Source: Streptococcus sp. DD10 (GTDB lineage: Bacteria; Bacillota; Bacilli; Lactobacillales; Streptococcaceae). From it: DNA of 41,083 nucleotides. Below are positions 16,957-21,428 of the stretch, piece by piece (position 1 is the first letter of the stretch; each line of letters starts with the position of its first letter). The stretch is taken from positions 557,523-598,605 of the forward strand of contig NZ_KQ969157.1 of NCBI RefSeq assembly GCF_001578805.1, in the 5' to 3' direction. The notes under the pieces were generated by a model. It was not told the DNA's origin and searched no databases. It saw nothing but the letters and a program-made list of their open reading frames with translations. The position numbers and the translations under genes were made by a program.

Positions 16957-18336
16957 TTATTTATCTGCTGAAAGTGCAGCCATCGTAATATAATTGTATG
17001 GCTTATTAAAGTGTGGTAAGAAGAACAAATCAGTCAAGGCCAATTTGTCAATAGTAACTTTTTCTTGGATAGCAAGCGAGAACATATGAATCCCCATTGA
17101 GATTTCTGAGTTTCGAGATACCATTTGAGCACCAAGAATGACACGACTATCTTTATCAAAAACAATTTTAATTCCTACGTTATGGTTATCGTGTTTGATA
17201 AATTCAGGTTTCTGTAAGTCGTTGAAACCAGTTTCAGTAGCATTGAATCCTGCCTTCTTAGCTCGCTCTAAGGTCAAACCAGTTGACACCATGTGCAGTC
17301 CATAGATAGAAATCCCATTGGAACCTTGTACACCAATTCCTTCAAGTTCAACTCCACAAGCATTGTAAGCACCAACAATACCAGAACGAACTGCATTTGA
17401 CGCAAGAGCAATATAACTTGTATCATTAAGTGCATTGTCATAAATTGTGGCACAGTCACCAACTGCATATACACCTGGAATCGACGTTTCTTGGTGTTTA
17501 TTTACCAAGAAAGCCCCATTTCGGAATAACTCAATCTTACCATCAGCCAAAGCAGTATTTGGACGGAAACCAACTGCAAGAATCACCATATCCACATCAA
17601 AGCTTTCCTTGTCTGTCACAATCCGCTCAACTTTACCATCACCTTCGATTGCTTGTACAGTTTGTCCCAATGCAAGTTTAATATGATTATCTTCCAAGTT
17701 TTTAGCCATAATATCTGTGAACTCACGATCATAATATCCATTAAGAACTGTATCCACGATATCAATTAAGACCACTTCTTTTCCTAGACGCTCGAAAGCT
17801 TCTGCCAGCTCAACACCAATATAACCACCACCAACAACAGCAATACGATTCAAATGTTTACTGCTATCTTTTAGTTTCTCAATCACTACCTCAGCATTTT
17901 GGTAAAGTTTTACAAATTGAATATTTTCAAGAGTTGCTTTAAATTCTCGATTTCCTTCTTCTAGCTCAACACCTTTAATTGGTGGAATAATTGGGGTAGA
18001 ACCAGTAGCAAAAATTAACTTATCATAACTTTCTTTATGTTCTTTTCCTTCTACTTCTGCTGTCACAACTTTATTATCATAGTCGATAGATAGTACAGGG
18101 GAGTTCATATATACTTTAGCACCTTTTGCCTCTAATTTCTCTTTATCTGAATAAAAGAGTCCTTCAGGTCCATCAATTTGTTCCCCAATCCACAAGGCCA
18201 TACCACATCCTAGGAAAGAAATATTTGAGTTTTGGTCAAAAACAACTACCTCATTTGCTGAACCAAAGTTATCTAACATAGTATTGATGGTTGCTGTACC
18301 AGCATGGTTTGCACCAACGACAACGATTTTACTCAT
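16957..18336 (-). CDS. nox: H2O-forming NADH oxidase
   Basis: Nox reduces O2 to water with NADH, regenerating NAD+ and protecting against oxygen. Its 459 residues equal the pneumococcal enzyme. The FAD motif [13 protein letters not shown] includes the active-site His. The redox-active Cys44 is in [12 protein letters not shown]. The NADH-binding [13 protein letters not shown] lies near 170 and the second FAD motif [13 protein letters not shown] near 275. An AAGGTAGGA site precedes the ATG. The promoter contains a perfect cre box (18393-18406), suggesting CcpA control by sugar supply. It is divergent from the apbE/flavin-reductase operon. Confidence 0.96.
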
Positions 18337-18378
18337 AGTAAATTCCTACCTTTTATATCATTTCTTAATTTCTTTCAT

Positions 18379-18407
18379 AGTATATCATTTTCTGTTAGCG
18401 TTTACAA
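18379..18407 (-). promoter_or_regulatory. nox promoter with perfect cre box
   Basis: On the minus strand TTGTAA (18407-18402), 17 bp and TATACT (18384-18379, with TGa ahead of it) form the promoter. TGTAAACGCTAACA (18406-18393) matches the cre consensus TGWAANCGNTNWCA at every position and covers the -35 box and adjoining spacer. CcpA binding here would affect polymerase access. Confidence 0.8.
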
Positions 18408-18529
18408 GAAGAAAGTCCCGAACTTGAAAAAATTTTGAAAAGCATAGCAAGTAAATTGTAAAATTTTATGATTTTTGAGGAATATTTTTCAATTTAAGCA
18501 AATTTCTTGACAAAAATATAAAAAAAGAA

Positions 18530-18558
18530 TTGTGAAAACGTTATCTTTATGATATGCT
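18530..18558 (+). promoter_or_regulatory. apbE operon promoter with cre-like box
   Basis: TTGTGA (18530-18535), 17 bp and TATGCT (18553-18558, preceded by TGa) form the promoter. TGAAAACGTTATCT (18533-18546) matches the cre consensus at 13 of 14 positions and lies between the two boxes, a placement typical of repression. Confidence 0.65.
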
Positions 18559-18587
18559 AGAAGTATATAATAATGAGGAGACAATCT

Positions 18588-19529
18588 ATGTCCTACACTT
18601 CTCAATCTACTCATTTGATGGGAGCTACTATTAGTCTGACCATTCAACATGATGATGCAGTAGAAATTTTGGGTCAATCTTTTCAGTTATTAGAGACACT
18701 AGAATATCGATTCAACGCCAATAGTTCGGATTCCGAACTATCCAGGATTAATCAAGAGGCTGGTATTAGACCAGTTATTGTACATCCGGATTTATTTGAA
18801 CTTATTTCTATAGGTAAAAAACATAGCCTAGCTGAAAATAGTCAGATGAATATTGCCATCGGCCCTTTAGTTCAGACTTGGAGAATCGGATTTTCTGATG
18901 CTAAAGTTCCTACAGATGACGAGATTCATCATGCATTAGCTAAAATTGATCCTAAAAAAATTATCTTGGATGAGAGAAACTTTAGTATTTTCCTTGCTGA
19001 AAAGGGAATGAAAATCGACCTAGGTTGCCTAGCAAAAGGATATAGCGCCGATAAACTAGCTGGCTTCCTTAGGTCAAAAGGCGTCACTTCTGCGCTTATC
19101 AATCTCGGTGGGAATATTTTAACAATAGGAAGTAAAGAGGGGAAACCTTGGAAAATTGGTCTTCAAGCCCCTCAGTCTCCAAATGGACATCATCTAGGGA
19201 TTATTCCTATCGTCAATCAATCCGTTGTAACTTCTGGTACCTATGTGCGTCACCTCAAAACTGAGGAGCATGATTTTCATCACATTTTTGATAGTTCTAC
19301 TGGTTATCCTTGCCACACCGATTTAAGGAGCCTGACCATTTTATCAGAACAATCAATAGATGGAGAAATCTGGACTACAAGACTGTTTGGTCAAAATGAA
19401 ATCAATATCCTCTGGCAGATTGAACAAACACCAAACATAGAAGCTATTTTAGTAGACAAACATGGGAAAATAACACTCTCATCTGGACTAGATCCTCTAC
19501 TTCCAACCAAAAGAAAGGAACTATTATGA
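18588..19529 (+). CDS. apbE: ApbE-family FAD:protein FMN transferase
   Basis: ApbE enzymes transfer FMN from FAD to a Thr or Ser of a target flavoprotein. The 313-residue protein shows the family blocks: IGPLVQTWRIG, DLGCLAKGYSADK, INLGGNILTIGS, VVTSGTYVRH (the SGxYxR block) and HHIFDSSTGYP. It has no signal peptide or lipobox, so it should act in the cytoplasm, unlike the exported lipoprotein forms. I use ATG 18588, seven bases after AGGAG. Its stop overlaps the next start (ATGA), coupling it to two flavin-reductase genes that are the likely partners. A cre-like box sits in the promoter. Confidence 0.9.
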   Translation: MSYTSQSTHLMGATISLTIQHDDAVEILGQSFQLLETLEYRFNANSSDSELSRINQEAGIRPVIVHPDLFELISIGKKHSLAENSQMNIAIGPLVQTWRIGFSDAKVPTDDEIHHALAKIDPKKIILDERNFSIFLAEKGMKIDLGCLAKGYSADKLAGFLRSKGVTSALINLGGNILTIGSKEGKPWKIGLQAPQSPNGHHLGIIPIVNQSVVTSGTYVRHLKTEEHDFHHIFDSSTGYPCHTDLRSLTILSEQSIDGEIWTTRLFGQNEINILWQIEQTPNIEAILVDKHGKITLSSGLDPLLPTKRKELL

Positions 19530-20134
19530 CAACTTTTATTGCCCTCGTAGGAACAAATTCAAAACGTTCCACAAACCGTCAACTTCTTCAATATATGCAA
19601 AAACATTTCGTTGATAAAGCTGATATTGAACTGATTGAAATTAAAGATTTGCCAGTTTTTAATAAACCAGCTGACAAACAACTTCCTTTAGAGGTTATCG
19701 AAATTTCAGAAAAGATTGATGCAGCAGATGGGGTCATTATTGGTACACCAGAGTACGACCACTCCATTCCAGCTGTCTTGATGAATGCTCTTGCATGGCT
19801 TTCATACGGTATCTATCCGATGCTAAATAAACCAGTTATGATCACTGGTGCCTCCTATGGTACTTTAGGTTCTTCTCGTGCACAATTACAACTACGCCAA
19901 ATACTTGATGCGCCTGAACTCAAAGCAAATGTAATGCCAGGATCTGAATTTTTGCTCTCTCACTCTCTACAAGCCTTTGACAAAAATGGAGACTTGATTG
20001 ATTTGGATACTATCAAAAAACTTGATGCATTGTTTGACGACTTCCGTCTTTTTGTTAAAATCACGCAAAAGTTGAAAAGCGCTCATGCTCTTCTCCATAA
20101 AGAAGCTGAAGATTTTGACTGGGAAAACCTCTAA
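19526..20134 (+). CDS. NADPH-dependent FMN reductase-type flavoprotein
   Basis: This 202-residue flavodoxin-fold protein has the phosphate-binding start LVGTNSKRSTNRQLL. It also has the flavin-loop motif GTPEYDHSIPAVLMNALAWLS and the MITGASYGTLGSSRAQLQLR segment typical of NADPH-dependent FMN and azo reductases. It should bind FMN and reduce a flavin, quinone or other acceptor with NAD(P)H. It overlaps apbE by four bases and is followed 21 bases later by a larger paralogue of the same fold. The TGAS tetrapeptide is a normal family segment, so it is not strong evidence for covalent flavinylation. Confidence 0.88.
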   Translation: MTTFIALVGTNSKRSTNRQLLQYMQKHFVDKADIELIEIKDLPVFNKPADKQLPLEVIEISEKIDAADGVIIGTPEYDHSIPAVLMNALAWLSYGIYPMLNKPVMITGASYGTLGSSRAQLQLRQILDAPELKANVMPGSEFLLSHSLQAFDKNGDLIDLDTIKKLDALFDDFRLFVKITQKLKSAHALLHKEAEDFDWENL

Positions 20135-20155
20135 TATTAGAAAGGAAAACTAAAT

Positions 20156-21394
20156 ATGAAATTTGTAGGACTCGTAGGAGCAAACTATGATCACTCGTAT
20201 AACCGAAAATTGCTAGAGTTTATTCGTCGACAATTCAAATTAAAATTCGAATTAGAAGTTTTAGAAATCGATGAAGTCCCAATGTTCAACCAAGATGAAA
20301 AATGGGACGAAAGTTTTCAACTTAGACTACTTTACAATAAAATTACTCGCTCTGATGGGGTCATTATCGCTACTCCAGAACATAATCATACTATTTCTGC
20401 TTCCTTGAAGAGCGTACTGGAATGGCTCTCCTTTGAAGTTCATCCATTTGAGAACAAGCCTGTTATGATTGTTGGTGCTTCTTACTACGATCAAGGAACC
20501 TCACGCGCACAAGTTCACCTCCGCAAAATATTAGAGGCTCCTGGGGTAAATGCATACACTTTGCCAGGTAATGAATTTTTACTCGGAAAAGCTAAGGAAG
20601 CCTTTGATGATAAAGGAAACATTACCAACTCCGGTACAGTTAACTTTTTAGAAACTTGTTTAGACAATTTTGTCAAATATGTGAAGGTTGTATCAAAATT
20701 GAAAAAACCGAAACCAATTGCTCCAGAAGATTTAGATGTTACTCATCCAATTGCAACAACTATTCAAGGTATTGACCCGGATGACCCTGAATGGGTTGAA
20801 AAAGCTGCCGAATTAGTCGGCGCTGTATCAGGAGATACCTATGTAAAACTTGACCATGGTATCCTCACTGTCAATCAAATTGATATGTTCCTTAAAGCAA
20901 TGCCATTTGAGTTGACTTATGCAGATGATAACAATCAGTTCTTATACTATAACAATGCTCACCAAGACCCTGATACTATGTTCGCTAAACGCGTGCCTTC
21001 TCAATCAGGTAATCGCCTATCAACTGTTCACAATTCCCTACCTGGAGGGCGGATGAAAAATGTAGAATGGGTAGTTGGTGTATTGCGAAATGGGGATCAA
21101 GAGTATGTTCGTACTATTGTCCCAGGTTCCCCAGATGGTGTGATTAATACGCATAATTACCAAGCTATGTACTATCCAGATGGTTCCTATGCTGGAATTA
21201 ATGAGATTGTATTTAACTTCCAACCTTGGTTAGATTGGTACCTTGCTTCTACTGGTCAACGACTAGTTGGAGGCAATGGTTCTGTAGCAGCTGGACCACA
21301 TGGAGGAGGACACGCTGATGCTACTGCTTCTGCATCAGGTGGTGCTGATGATAATACTGCTGAAGCAGATGCAACCTCTAGTGCAAGTAATTAA
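20156..21394 (+). CDS. FMN reductase fused to a PAS-like domain, with A/S/G/D-rich tail
   Basis: Residues 1-185 are a second FMN-reductase fold (LVGANYDHSYNRKLLEF, ATPEHNHTISASLKSVLEWLS, IVGASYYDQGTSRAQ). After a linker, residues about 225-375 match a PAS_10-type sensor domain: FELTYADDNNQFLYYNN, then FAKRVPSQSGNRLSTVHN and INEIVFNFQPW. Such domains often bind haem, flavin or small ligands. The last 35 or so residues are low complexity, rich in Ala, Ser, Gly, Asp and His, which is unusual for a cytosolic reductase. An AGAAAGGAA site precedes the ATG. It is the last gene of the apbE operon, before a strong terminator. Role and acceptor are unknown. Confidence 0.85.
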   Translation: MKFVGLVGANYDHSYNRKLLEFIRRQFKLKFELEVLEIDEVPMFNQDEKWDESFQLRLLYNKITRSDGVIIATPEHNHTISASLKSVLEWLSFEVHPFENKPVMIVGASYYDQGTSRAQVHLRKILEAPGVNAYTLPGNEFLLGKAKEAFDDKGNITNSGTVNFLETCLDNFVKYVKVVSKLKKPKPIAPEDLDVTHPIATTIQGIDPDDPEWVEKAAELVGAVSGDTYVKLDHGILTVNQIDMFLKAMPFELTYADDNNQFLYYNNAHQDPDTMFAKRVPSQSGNRLSTVHNSLPGGRMKNVEWVVGVLRNGDQEYVRTIVPGSPDGVINTHNYQAMYYPDGSYAGINEIVFNFQPWLDWYLASTGQRLVGGNGSVAAGPHGGGHADATASASGGADDNTAEADATSSASN

Positions 21395-21397
21395 GAA

Positions 21398-21428
21398 AAA
21401 CCCAACTAAGAAATTCTTAGTTGGGTTT
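21398..21428 (+). terminator. Intrinsic terminator of apbE operon
   Basis: AAACCCAACTAAGAA and TTCTTAGTTGGGTTT form a 15-bp perfect stem with T-rich sequence at its end, directly after the operon stop. Confidence 0.85.

Follow-up and report, generated by a model that had tools for sequence, protein, structure and literature searches.

The stretch of DNA analysed here, called the window throughout, comprises 41,083 nucleotides of the 2.19-Mb genome of Streptococcus sp. DD10 (label G000) and contains an operon of three flavin-related genes. A check of the open reading frames found all three on the forward strand. The first gene (18588..19529, 313 residues) encodes an ApbE protein, i.e., a flavin adenine dinucleotide (FAD):protein flavin mononucleotide (FMN) transferase, with a Pfam ApbE match of 1.2e-72 and a domain score of 245 bits against a curated cut-off of 25.6. 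A ribosome-site-like GAGGAG stretch precedes its ATG at 18588. The protein starts with MSYTSQSTHLMG... and shows no hydrophobic signal, which is in good agreement with an earlier interpretation of the letters alone (hereafter the sequence-only reading), where an ApbE without signal peptide had been proposed. As also stated there, the gene overlaps a flavin reductase gene, namely by four bases (19526-19529) on the same strand. This second gene (gene 2, 19526..20134) encodes a short FMN_red protein of 202 residues (Pfam FMN_red, 2.6e-35). The third gene (gene 3, 20156..21394, 412 residues) combines an FMN_red domain at residues 1-147 (7.7e-32), a PAS_10 domain at residues 242-355 (1.6e-21, 77.4 bits against a cut-off of 22.1) and a disordered tail at residues 374-412. 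No match to the FMN_bind domain (PF04205) was obtained for gene 3 in Pfam at E-values up to 1.

The AlphaFold model of gene 3 has a mean predicted local distance difference test (pLDDT) score of 84.6, with values below 50 across the tail, so that the third gene does encode a reductase with a sensor-like domain and a low-complexity C-terminus, as the sequence-only reading had it. Structure comparison of the FMN_red part retrieves chromate reductase and FerB, with 4hs4 at Z 24.8 (1.8 A, 177 residues aligned) and 3u7r at Z 23.4. For the PAS domain alone, the best match is 2qkp, the C-terminal domain of SMU_1151c (Z 16.9, root-mean-square deviation 1.9, 137 residues aligned), followed by 3cax (PF0695, Z 14.9), while all remaining rows lie at Z 10.4 or below. 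Heme-PAS structures occur at Z 8.5-9.9, and these rows are not evidence for a PAS ligand. Outside the tail, gene 3 is undamaged and shares 87-89% identity with the proteins of S. massiliensis, S. sinensis and S. pneumoniae. When the window is set against five comparison loci, identity amounts to 81-89% for genes 2 and 3 and to 52-62% for ApbE. In two genomes of the same genus (L070 and L098), gene 3 is split into two frames.

Transfer by ApbE is directed to the last Ser or Thr of a seven-residue motif, and tags at a terminus, N or C, were labelled best, as passages of PMC12052999 report. We call a motif strict if it reads D-x-x-[S/T]-G-A-[S/T] and relaxed if position 5 is [G/S]. The tail of gene 3 holds two related copies on the forward strand: DATASAS (D388-S394, 21317..21337), which aligns with the DATSGAS of most relatives, and DATSSAS (D405-S411, 21368..21388), which is likewise aligned with strict DATSGAS copies, ends one residue from the C-terminus and provides the predicted acceptor, S411. 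Both copies retain the acceptor Ser and A-S. Among shuffled versions of this tail, one relaxed copy occurs in 1.6%, and two copies, with Ala permitted at position 4, in 0.03%. The sequence-only reading saw no classic D-x-x-S-G-A-T site. This is literally right, as there is no strict copy, but it is misleading in view of DATASAS and DATSSAS; the motif was overlooked because the tail form of this species is unusual. The alternative raised there, that the Ser/Thr-rich tail itself may be the site, gains support from relatives, whose tails conserve the motif and make the tail the probable acceptor.

For the relatives, tail counts were pooled over 145 distinct tails, 106 from the family set and 39 from other Lactobacillales. 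L238, one of 146 distinct gene-3 sequences, was left out since its tail start did not fit the pattern; its tail itself shows DTTSSAS and DADSSAS. A strict copy is present in 135 of the 145 tails and a relaxed copy in 144. Zero, one, two, three and four strict copies are found in 10, 17, 107, 9 and 2 tails, respectively; the corresponding numbers for relaxed copies are 1, 8, 111, 21 and 4. Altogether, the tails hold 266 strict copies, where 1000 shuffles gave 1.1 on average and 7 at most, and 309 relaxed copies, against a shuffle mean of 1.8. The bodies of the same proteins are free of the motif (0 of 145). In 137 of the 144 motif-bearing tails the last copy ends 1-3 residues before the C-terminus, the median spacing between motifs is 19 residues, and the motif columns are conserved between variable spacers. 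The FMN_red partner does not share this feature: gene 2 of the window lacks the tail motif, and a relaxed motif was found in only one of 136 distinct gene-2 homologues adjoining gene 3.

The Gly- and Ser-type forms of the motif are distributed unevenly. A separate reading of the family set covered 99 tails of 102 loci and gave two strict copies in 96 and one in three; the remaining loci were read afterwards, L137 with two strict copies, S. anginosus L157 and S. intermedius L169 each with one strict copy and DATSAAS. At position 5 of the relaxed copies, the 106 family-set tails carry Gly 204 times and Ser once, the latter in the window. In the genomes sampled at the order level (40 loci), a tail can have as many as four copies, frequently of the form D-x-x-S-S-A-S, and here Gly occurs 62 and Ser 42 times in the 104 motifs of the 39 other Lactobacillales tails. 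Nine of these tails, as read by eye, have no Gly-type copy at all. Two members from genera of another family, L210 and L211, carry a gene 3 that is 89% and 84% identical to that of the window, about as close as other streptococci, and the tail of L211 has the same DATSSASN end. This likeness suggests transfer between Lactobacillales.

The linkage to ApbE was examined at 205 gene-3 loci, which are not equal to 205 genomes because the collections overlap. In 178 loci, all three genes share one strand, with ApbE first, FMN_red second and gene 3 last. ApbE lies downstream in two loci, one locus has the same order with a broken gene 3, and 24 show no same-strand ApbE within the fetched stretch. All 21 genomes behind these 24 loci encode an ApbE somewhere; in G377 it adjoins gene 3 on the opposite strand, and in G421 it lies about 4 kb off, again on the opposite strand. 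The FMN_red gene precedes gene 3 in every one of the 205 loci. No hydrophobic stretch was detected in 175 of 187 gene-3-adjacent ApbEs, and inspection of the 12 flagged ones by eye revealed a core strand behind M-G and a lipobox in none.

Of the active-site residues, Ser, Arg and His are kept in the transferase. The structure 7esa, which we take to be Listeria FmnB with an inferred numbering offset of 20 that is consistent for all four residues, aligns such that S216, R221 and H232 of the window ApbE correspond to FmnB S257, R262 and H273, and E260 occupies the Asp301 position. The roles of the FmnB residues, including the catalytic triad Asp301-Ser257-His273, are given in passages of PMC12052999. 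Among 197 distinct ApbEs, the window protein deviates at none of 44 conserved columns, which is also the median. The triad-Asp position is Glu in 175 of 176 ApbEs without a signal-like N-terminus and Asp in all 21 with one. Judging from this alignment, Glu in the cytosolic Lactobacillales ApbEs is a conservative change common to the whole lineage. It may represent one old change in a single lineage, and the Glu-type site is therefore not independent functional evidence.

A scan of the genome for other targets used the DNA pattern of D-x-x-[ST]-[G/S/R]-A-[ST], which does not capture serine encoded by TCN at position 5 or sites in masked stretches. It gave 39 matches (17 forward, 22 reverse), compared with 9 and 8 for a reversed-pattern control. 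For 16 matches the reading frame was checked; the remaining 23 were inspected by eye as letters, and none of them yields the motif. Long frames in register are gene 3 (DATSSAS), a Peripla_BP_2 protein (DQETGAS), a PDDEXK_1 nuclease (DYKSGAT) and, with Arg at position 5, a frame of 1006 codons. The Peripla_BP_2 protein, with a lipoprotein-like start, and the PD-(D/E)XK nuclease are unlikely ApbE targets in spite of their strict motifs, and a 97-codon frame with DFESSAS is probably no gene. Among the 39 matches, no better ApbE target than gene 3 was found. A second ApbE frame lies on contig 3 of the genome (63.6-66.8 kb, L004, partly masked), adjoining an FMN_bind protein and a Ferric_reduct/NAD_binding_1 membrane protein. 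The former, with 154 residues and the motif QLVSGAT, is the sole FMN_bind match of the genome, and by its gene content the group resembles an extracytosolic electron-transfer cluster.

We suggest that the operon encodes a cytosolic flavin transferase together with its target. In the gene 3 tail, one or two sites of the form D-x-x-[S/T]-[G/S]-A-S would receive FMN on their final Ser, most likely S411 and possibly S394, with ApbE taking the FMN from FAD. Electrons from reduced nicotinamide adenine dinucleotide (phosphate), NAD(P)H, would first reach the regular FMN in the FMN_red fold of gene 3, for which the short FMN_red of gene 2 is the probable dimer partner, and would pass on to the tail-tethered FMN, a swinging redox arm toward some acceptor. 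The PAS_10 domain would sense or gate this electron flow. Where function past NAD(P)H-driven flavin chemistry is concerned, we infer rather than observe. This explanation as a whole, a cytosolic ApbE with a tail-flavinylated FMN_red-PAS_10 redox arm, is likely in our judgement. Flavinylation of the tail in the family is very probable by precedent and conservation, and for the window protein with its predicted Ser-type site we still regard it as reasonably probable.

The precedent comes from a kind of protein that was described in 2024. According to passages of PMC11334425, ApbE-associated FMN_red proteins, found mostly in Firmicutes, carry one or two motifs in a C-terminal extension, and for two such proteins of Lactococcus the flavinylation was demonstrated by experiment to depend on ApbE and to need the motif Ser/Thr. 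The window protein shares the FMN_red fold and the C-terminal extension with these proteins, L. lactis WP_021723379.1 and L. taiwanensis WP_205872264.1, but differs in the interposed PAS_10 domain, the partner FMN_red gene and the Ser-type sites; the passages of PMC11334425 on the Lactococcus proteins name no PAS domain. Further departures from the published kind are the spread across the Lactobacillales, pneumococcus included, the cre-like sites by a divergent nox gene (see below) and the Glu-type cytosolic ApbE. The uncharacterised flavoprotein module of the sequence-only reading is thus an ApbE-linked cytosolic module as supposed, but of a kind already shown in Lactococcus. Streptococcal members may be listed in Table S1 of PMC11334425. 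A literature search on at least two of the three terms ApbE, PAS and FMN reductase, judged by title and abstract, found no paper on the combined architecture, and the survey in PMC8238504, as far as its passages tell, covered extracytosolic systems only.

Our own loci contain a simpler arrangement as well. In two genera, g8 and g2, with 20 loci, an FMN_red protein with a relaxed tail motif is present in 16 and an adjoining ApbE in 18; we take g8 to be Lactococcus. Two proteins scanned from these loci are FMN_red without PAS, the tail being attached directly to FMN_red, and in L253 a 198-residue FMN_red protein ends in DADTGASEHE. Some Streptococcaceae have FMN_red-FMN_bind-FAD_binding_2 fusions (803-826 residues in 8 of 10 loci; Pfam domains checked for L092), in which, as in the window, a short FMN_red gene adjoins one that joins FMN_red to a flavinylation domain. 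Nine of the ten loci contain D-x-x-SGAS, L090 being the exception. Here, the acceptor resides in the FMN_bind domain, and a fumarate-reductase-type FAD domain takes the place of PAS_10; this architecture was not found in the genome of the window. Among systems from elsewhere, the Klebsiella cytosolic fumarate reductase and its cytosolic ApbE (passages of PMC12052999) are both soluble like the window proteins, with a different target architecture. The trypanosomatid fumarate reductase (passages of PMC8065229) shares the terminal acceptor Ser and the tolerance of Ser at the Gly position, but has its ApbE domain fused to the target and its site at the N-terminus.

Several observations weigh against the proposed flavinylation. 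The window tail has no strict and only one relaxed copy (Gly to Ser), Gly is replaced in both copies, and copy 1 also lacks Ser/Thr at position 4. In Klebsiella fumarate reductase, a Gly to Ala exchange cuts flavinylation to about 50% (PMC12052999, in part). Ten of the 145 tails are without a strict copy, the L246 tail is without a relaxed one and shows no copy that starts with Asp, and the catalytic-triad Asp is Glu in the ApbE lineage of the window. With regard to the Gly position, the trypanosomatid motif D(g/s)x(s/t)(s/g)AS permits Ser (passages of PMC8065229). Since Ser is tolerated there and even Ala leaves about half of the modification in Klebsiella, S411 is expected to be modified, perhaps less completely. 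A related concern, which we regard as unlikely, is decay in this species, with gene 3 no longer flavinylated and ApbE kept for another target or being lost. It would fit the sole Ser-type tail among the 106 distinct family-set tails and the lower identity of ApbE compared with genes 2 and 3. It fits poorly with the Ser-type motifs of other Lactobacillales, where nine tails manage without any Gly-type copy and L211, from another genus, ends in the same way; in addition, neither tail copy has lost its acceptor Ser or A-S, both ApbE and gene 3 remain intact, and the genome scan yielded no better target.

Other readings concern what the flavin does. The tail FMNs might fill the FMN sites of two FMN_red units without any relay, the tail merely preventing flavin loss. 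This is the interpretation offered in passages of PMC11334425, where a model of the L. lactis protein puts the tail near the FMN site, and the 111 of 145 tails with precisely two relaxed motifs would agree with a gene 2-gene 3 heterodimer that offers two such sites. We consider it a serious possibility, if not the favoured one, as 25 of the 145 tails have more relaxed motifs (three or four) than a dimer has sites, the tail comes after the PAS domain about 200 residues past the reductase fold, and flavin loss would presumably be less of a problem for a cytosolic protein. ApbE splits FAD into FMN and AMP (adenosine monophosphate), and both neighbours use FMN, so that ApbE could act as an FAD pyrophosphatase giving free FMN to both reductases without covalent attachment. 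This is very improbable, because it leaves unexplained both the conserved, repeated C-terminal transfer motif and the covalent labelling of relatives published in PMC11334425 (in part). Hardly any weight remains for the TGAS loop of a reductase, the second acceptor site considered by the sequence-only reading. The letters TGAS do occur in gene 2, with Val instead of Asp three residues before the Thr, but the loop belongs to the FMN_red fold, its place is taken in gene 3 by VGAS, with G107 and S109 invariant in 41 sequences, and the bodies of gene 3 are devoid of the motif.

Upstream of the operon, and outside it, lies a divergent gene for an H2O-forming NADH oxidase (nox, 16957..18336, reverse strand; NCBIfam NOXase_Strep, 2.5e-229). 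Among 120 loci examined, 26 have no ApbE; in 83 of the other 94, a divergent nox adjoins ApbE. The nox-apbE gap (18337-18587) contains both perfect matches in the window to the catabolite-responsive element (cre) pattern, TGAAAACGTTATCT upstream of apbE (18533..18546, forward) and a second cre-like site on the nox side (18393..18406, reverse); 0.04 were expected, and two were seen in 1 of 100 shuffles. In L068-L187, the 300 bases in front of ApbE give 88 distinct regions, of which 40 hold at least one such site and 48 none. Within these 88 loci (993 kb), 42 of 43 cre-like sites fall into the 300 bases upstream of ApbE, counts that are not independent because the loci are related. Elements of this consensus are linked to the regulator CcpA. 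Expression data in passages of PMC5327383 show SPD_1301 and SPD_1302 down 2.2-fold in a pflB deletion on galactose; this is no test of CcpA control, as ccpA itself was also down.

The module is widespread in the order. A near full-length gene 3 match is present in 84 of 147 family genomes (counted by eye), 79 of them among 96 genomes of the same genus, the window's included, and full-length matches occur in many Lactobacillales genera among the matches listed. Of 299 genomes sampled across the phylum, only the window's own and that of one congener gave a full-length gene 3 match at E up to 1e-40, and a third genome matched FMN_red alone. The S. pneumoniae genome L176 holds all three genes. Pneumococcal SP1470-71 / SPD1300-01, named apbE and azr_1 in passages of PMC11559097, and SPD_1302, a putative oxidoreductase in passages of PMC5327383, appear to correspond to them. 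In the literature, as far as the passages seen tell, no functional study of these pneumococcal genes (SP1470-71, SPD_1300 to SPD_1302) was found, only expression tables. Genes known mainly from such tables thereby gain a testable biochemical role. That many Lactobacillales genera, including oral streptococci and pneumococcus, retain a cytosolic transferase and a target with a multi-site tail offers a clean system for asking why flavin is tethered in the cytosol and whether a tail without fixed structure is able to carry electrons. As a more speculative idea, which we put forward tentatively and hold to be rather doubtful in its full form, the module might be a cytosolic electron carrier found throughout the Lactobacillales: a pair of reductases, gated by PAS and with two to four FMNs on a flexible tail, would act as a swinging flavin wire and re-oxidise NAD(P)H on relief of sugar repression, served by a dedicated Glu-type ApbE that accepts Gly- and Ser-type motifs.

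A survey of neighbours at the 40 order-level loci considered up to three neighbours per locus, each shorter than 700 residues; 108 proteins were chosen and 107 scanned. No common partner enzyme beside the operon emerged among the 107. The commonest family was HTH_3 (16 of 107), and HTH_3 regulators of about 285 residues adjoin the operon in other genera (L217, L221, L241, L243 and others). Directly after gene 3 in the window, a terminator-like hairpin with a palindromic 14-bp stem (21398..21428) is listed on the reverse strand only and is followed by few T on the forward strand.

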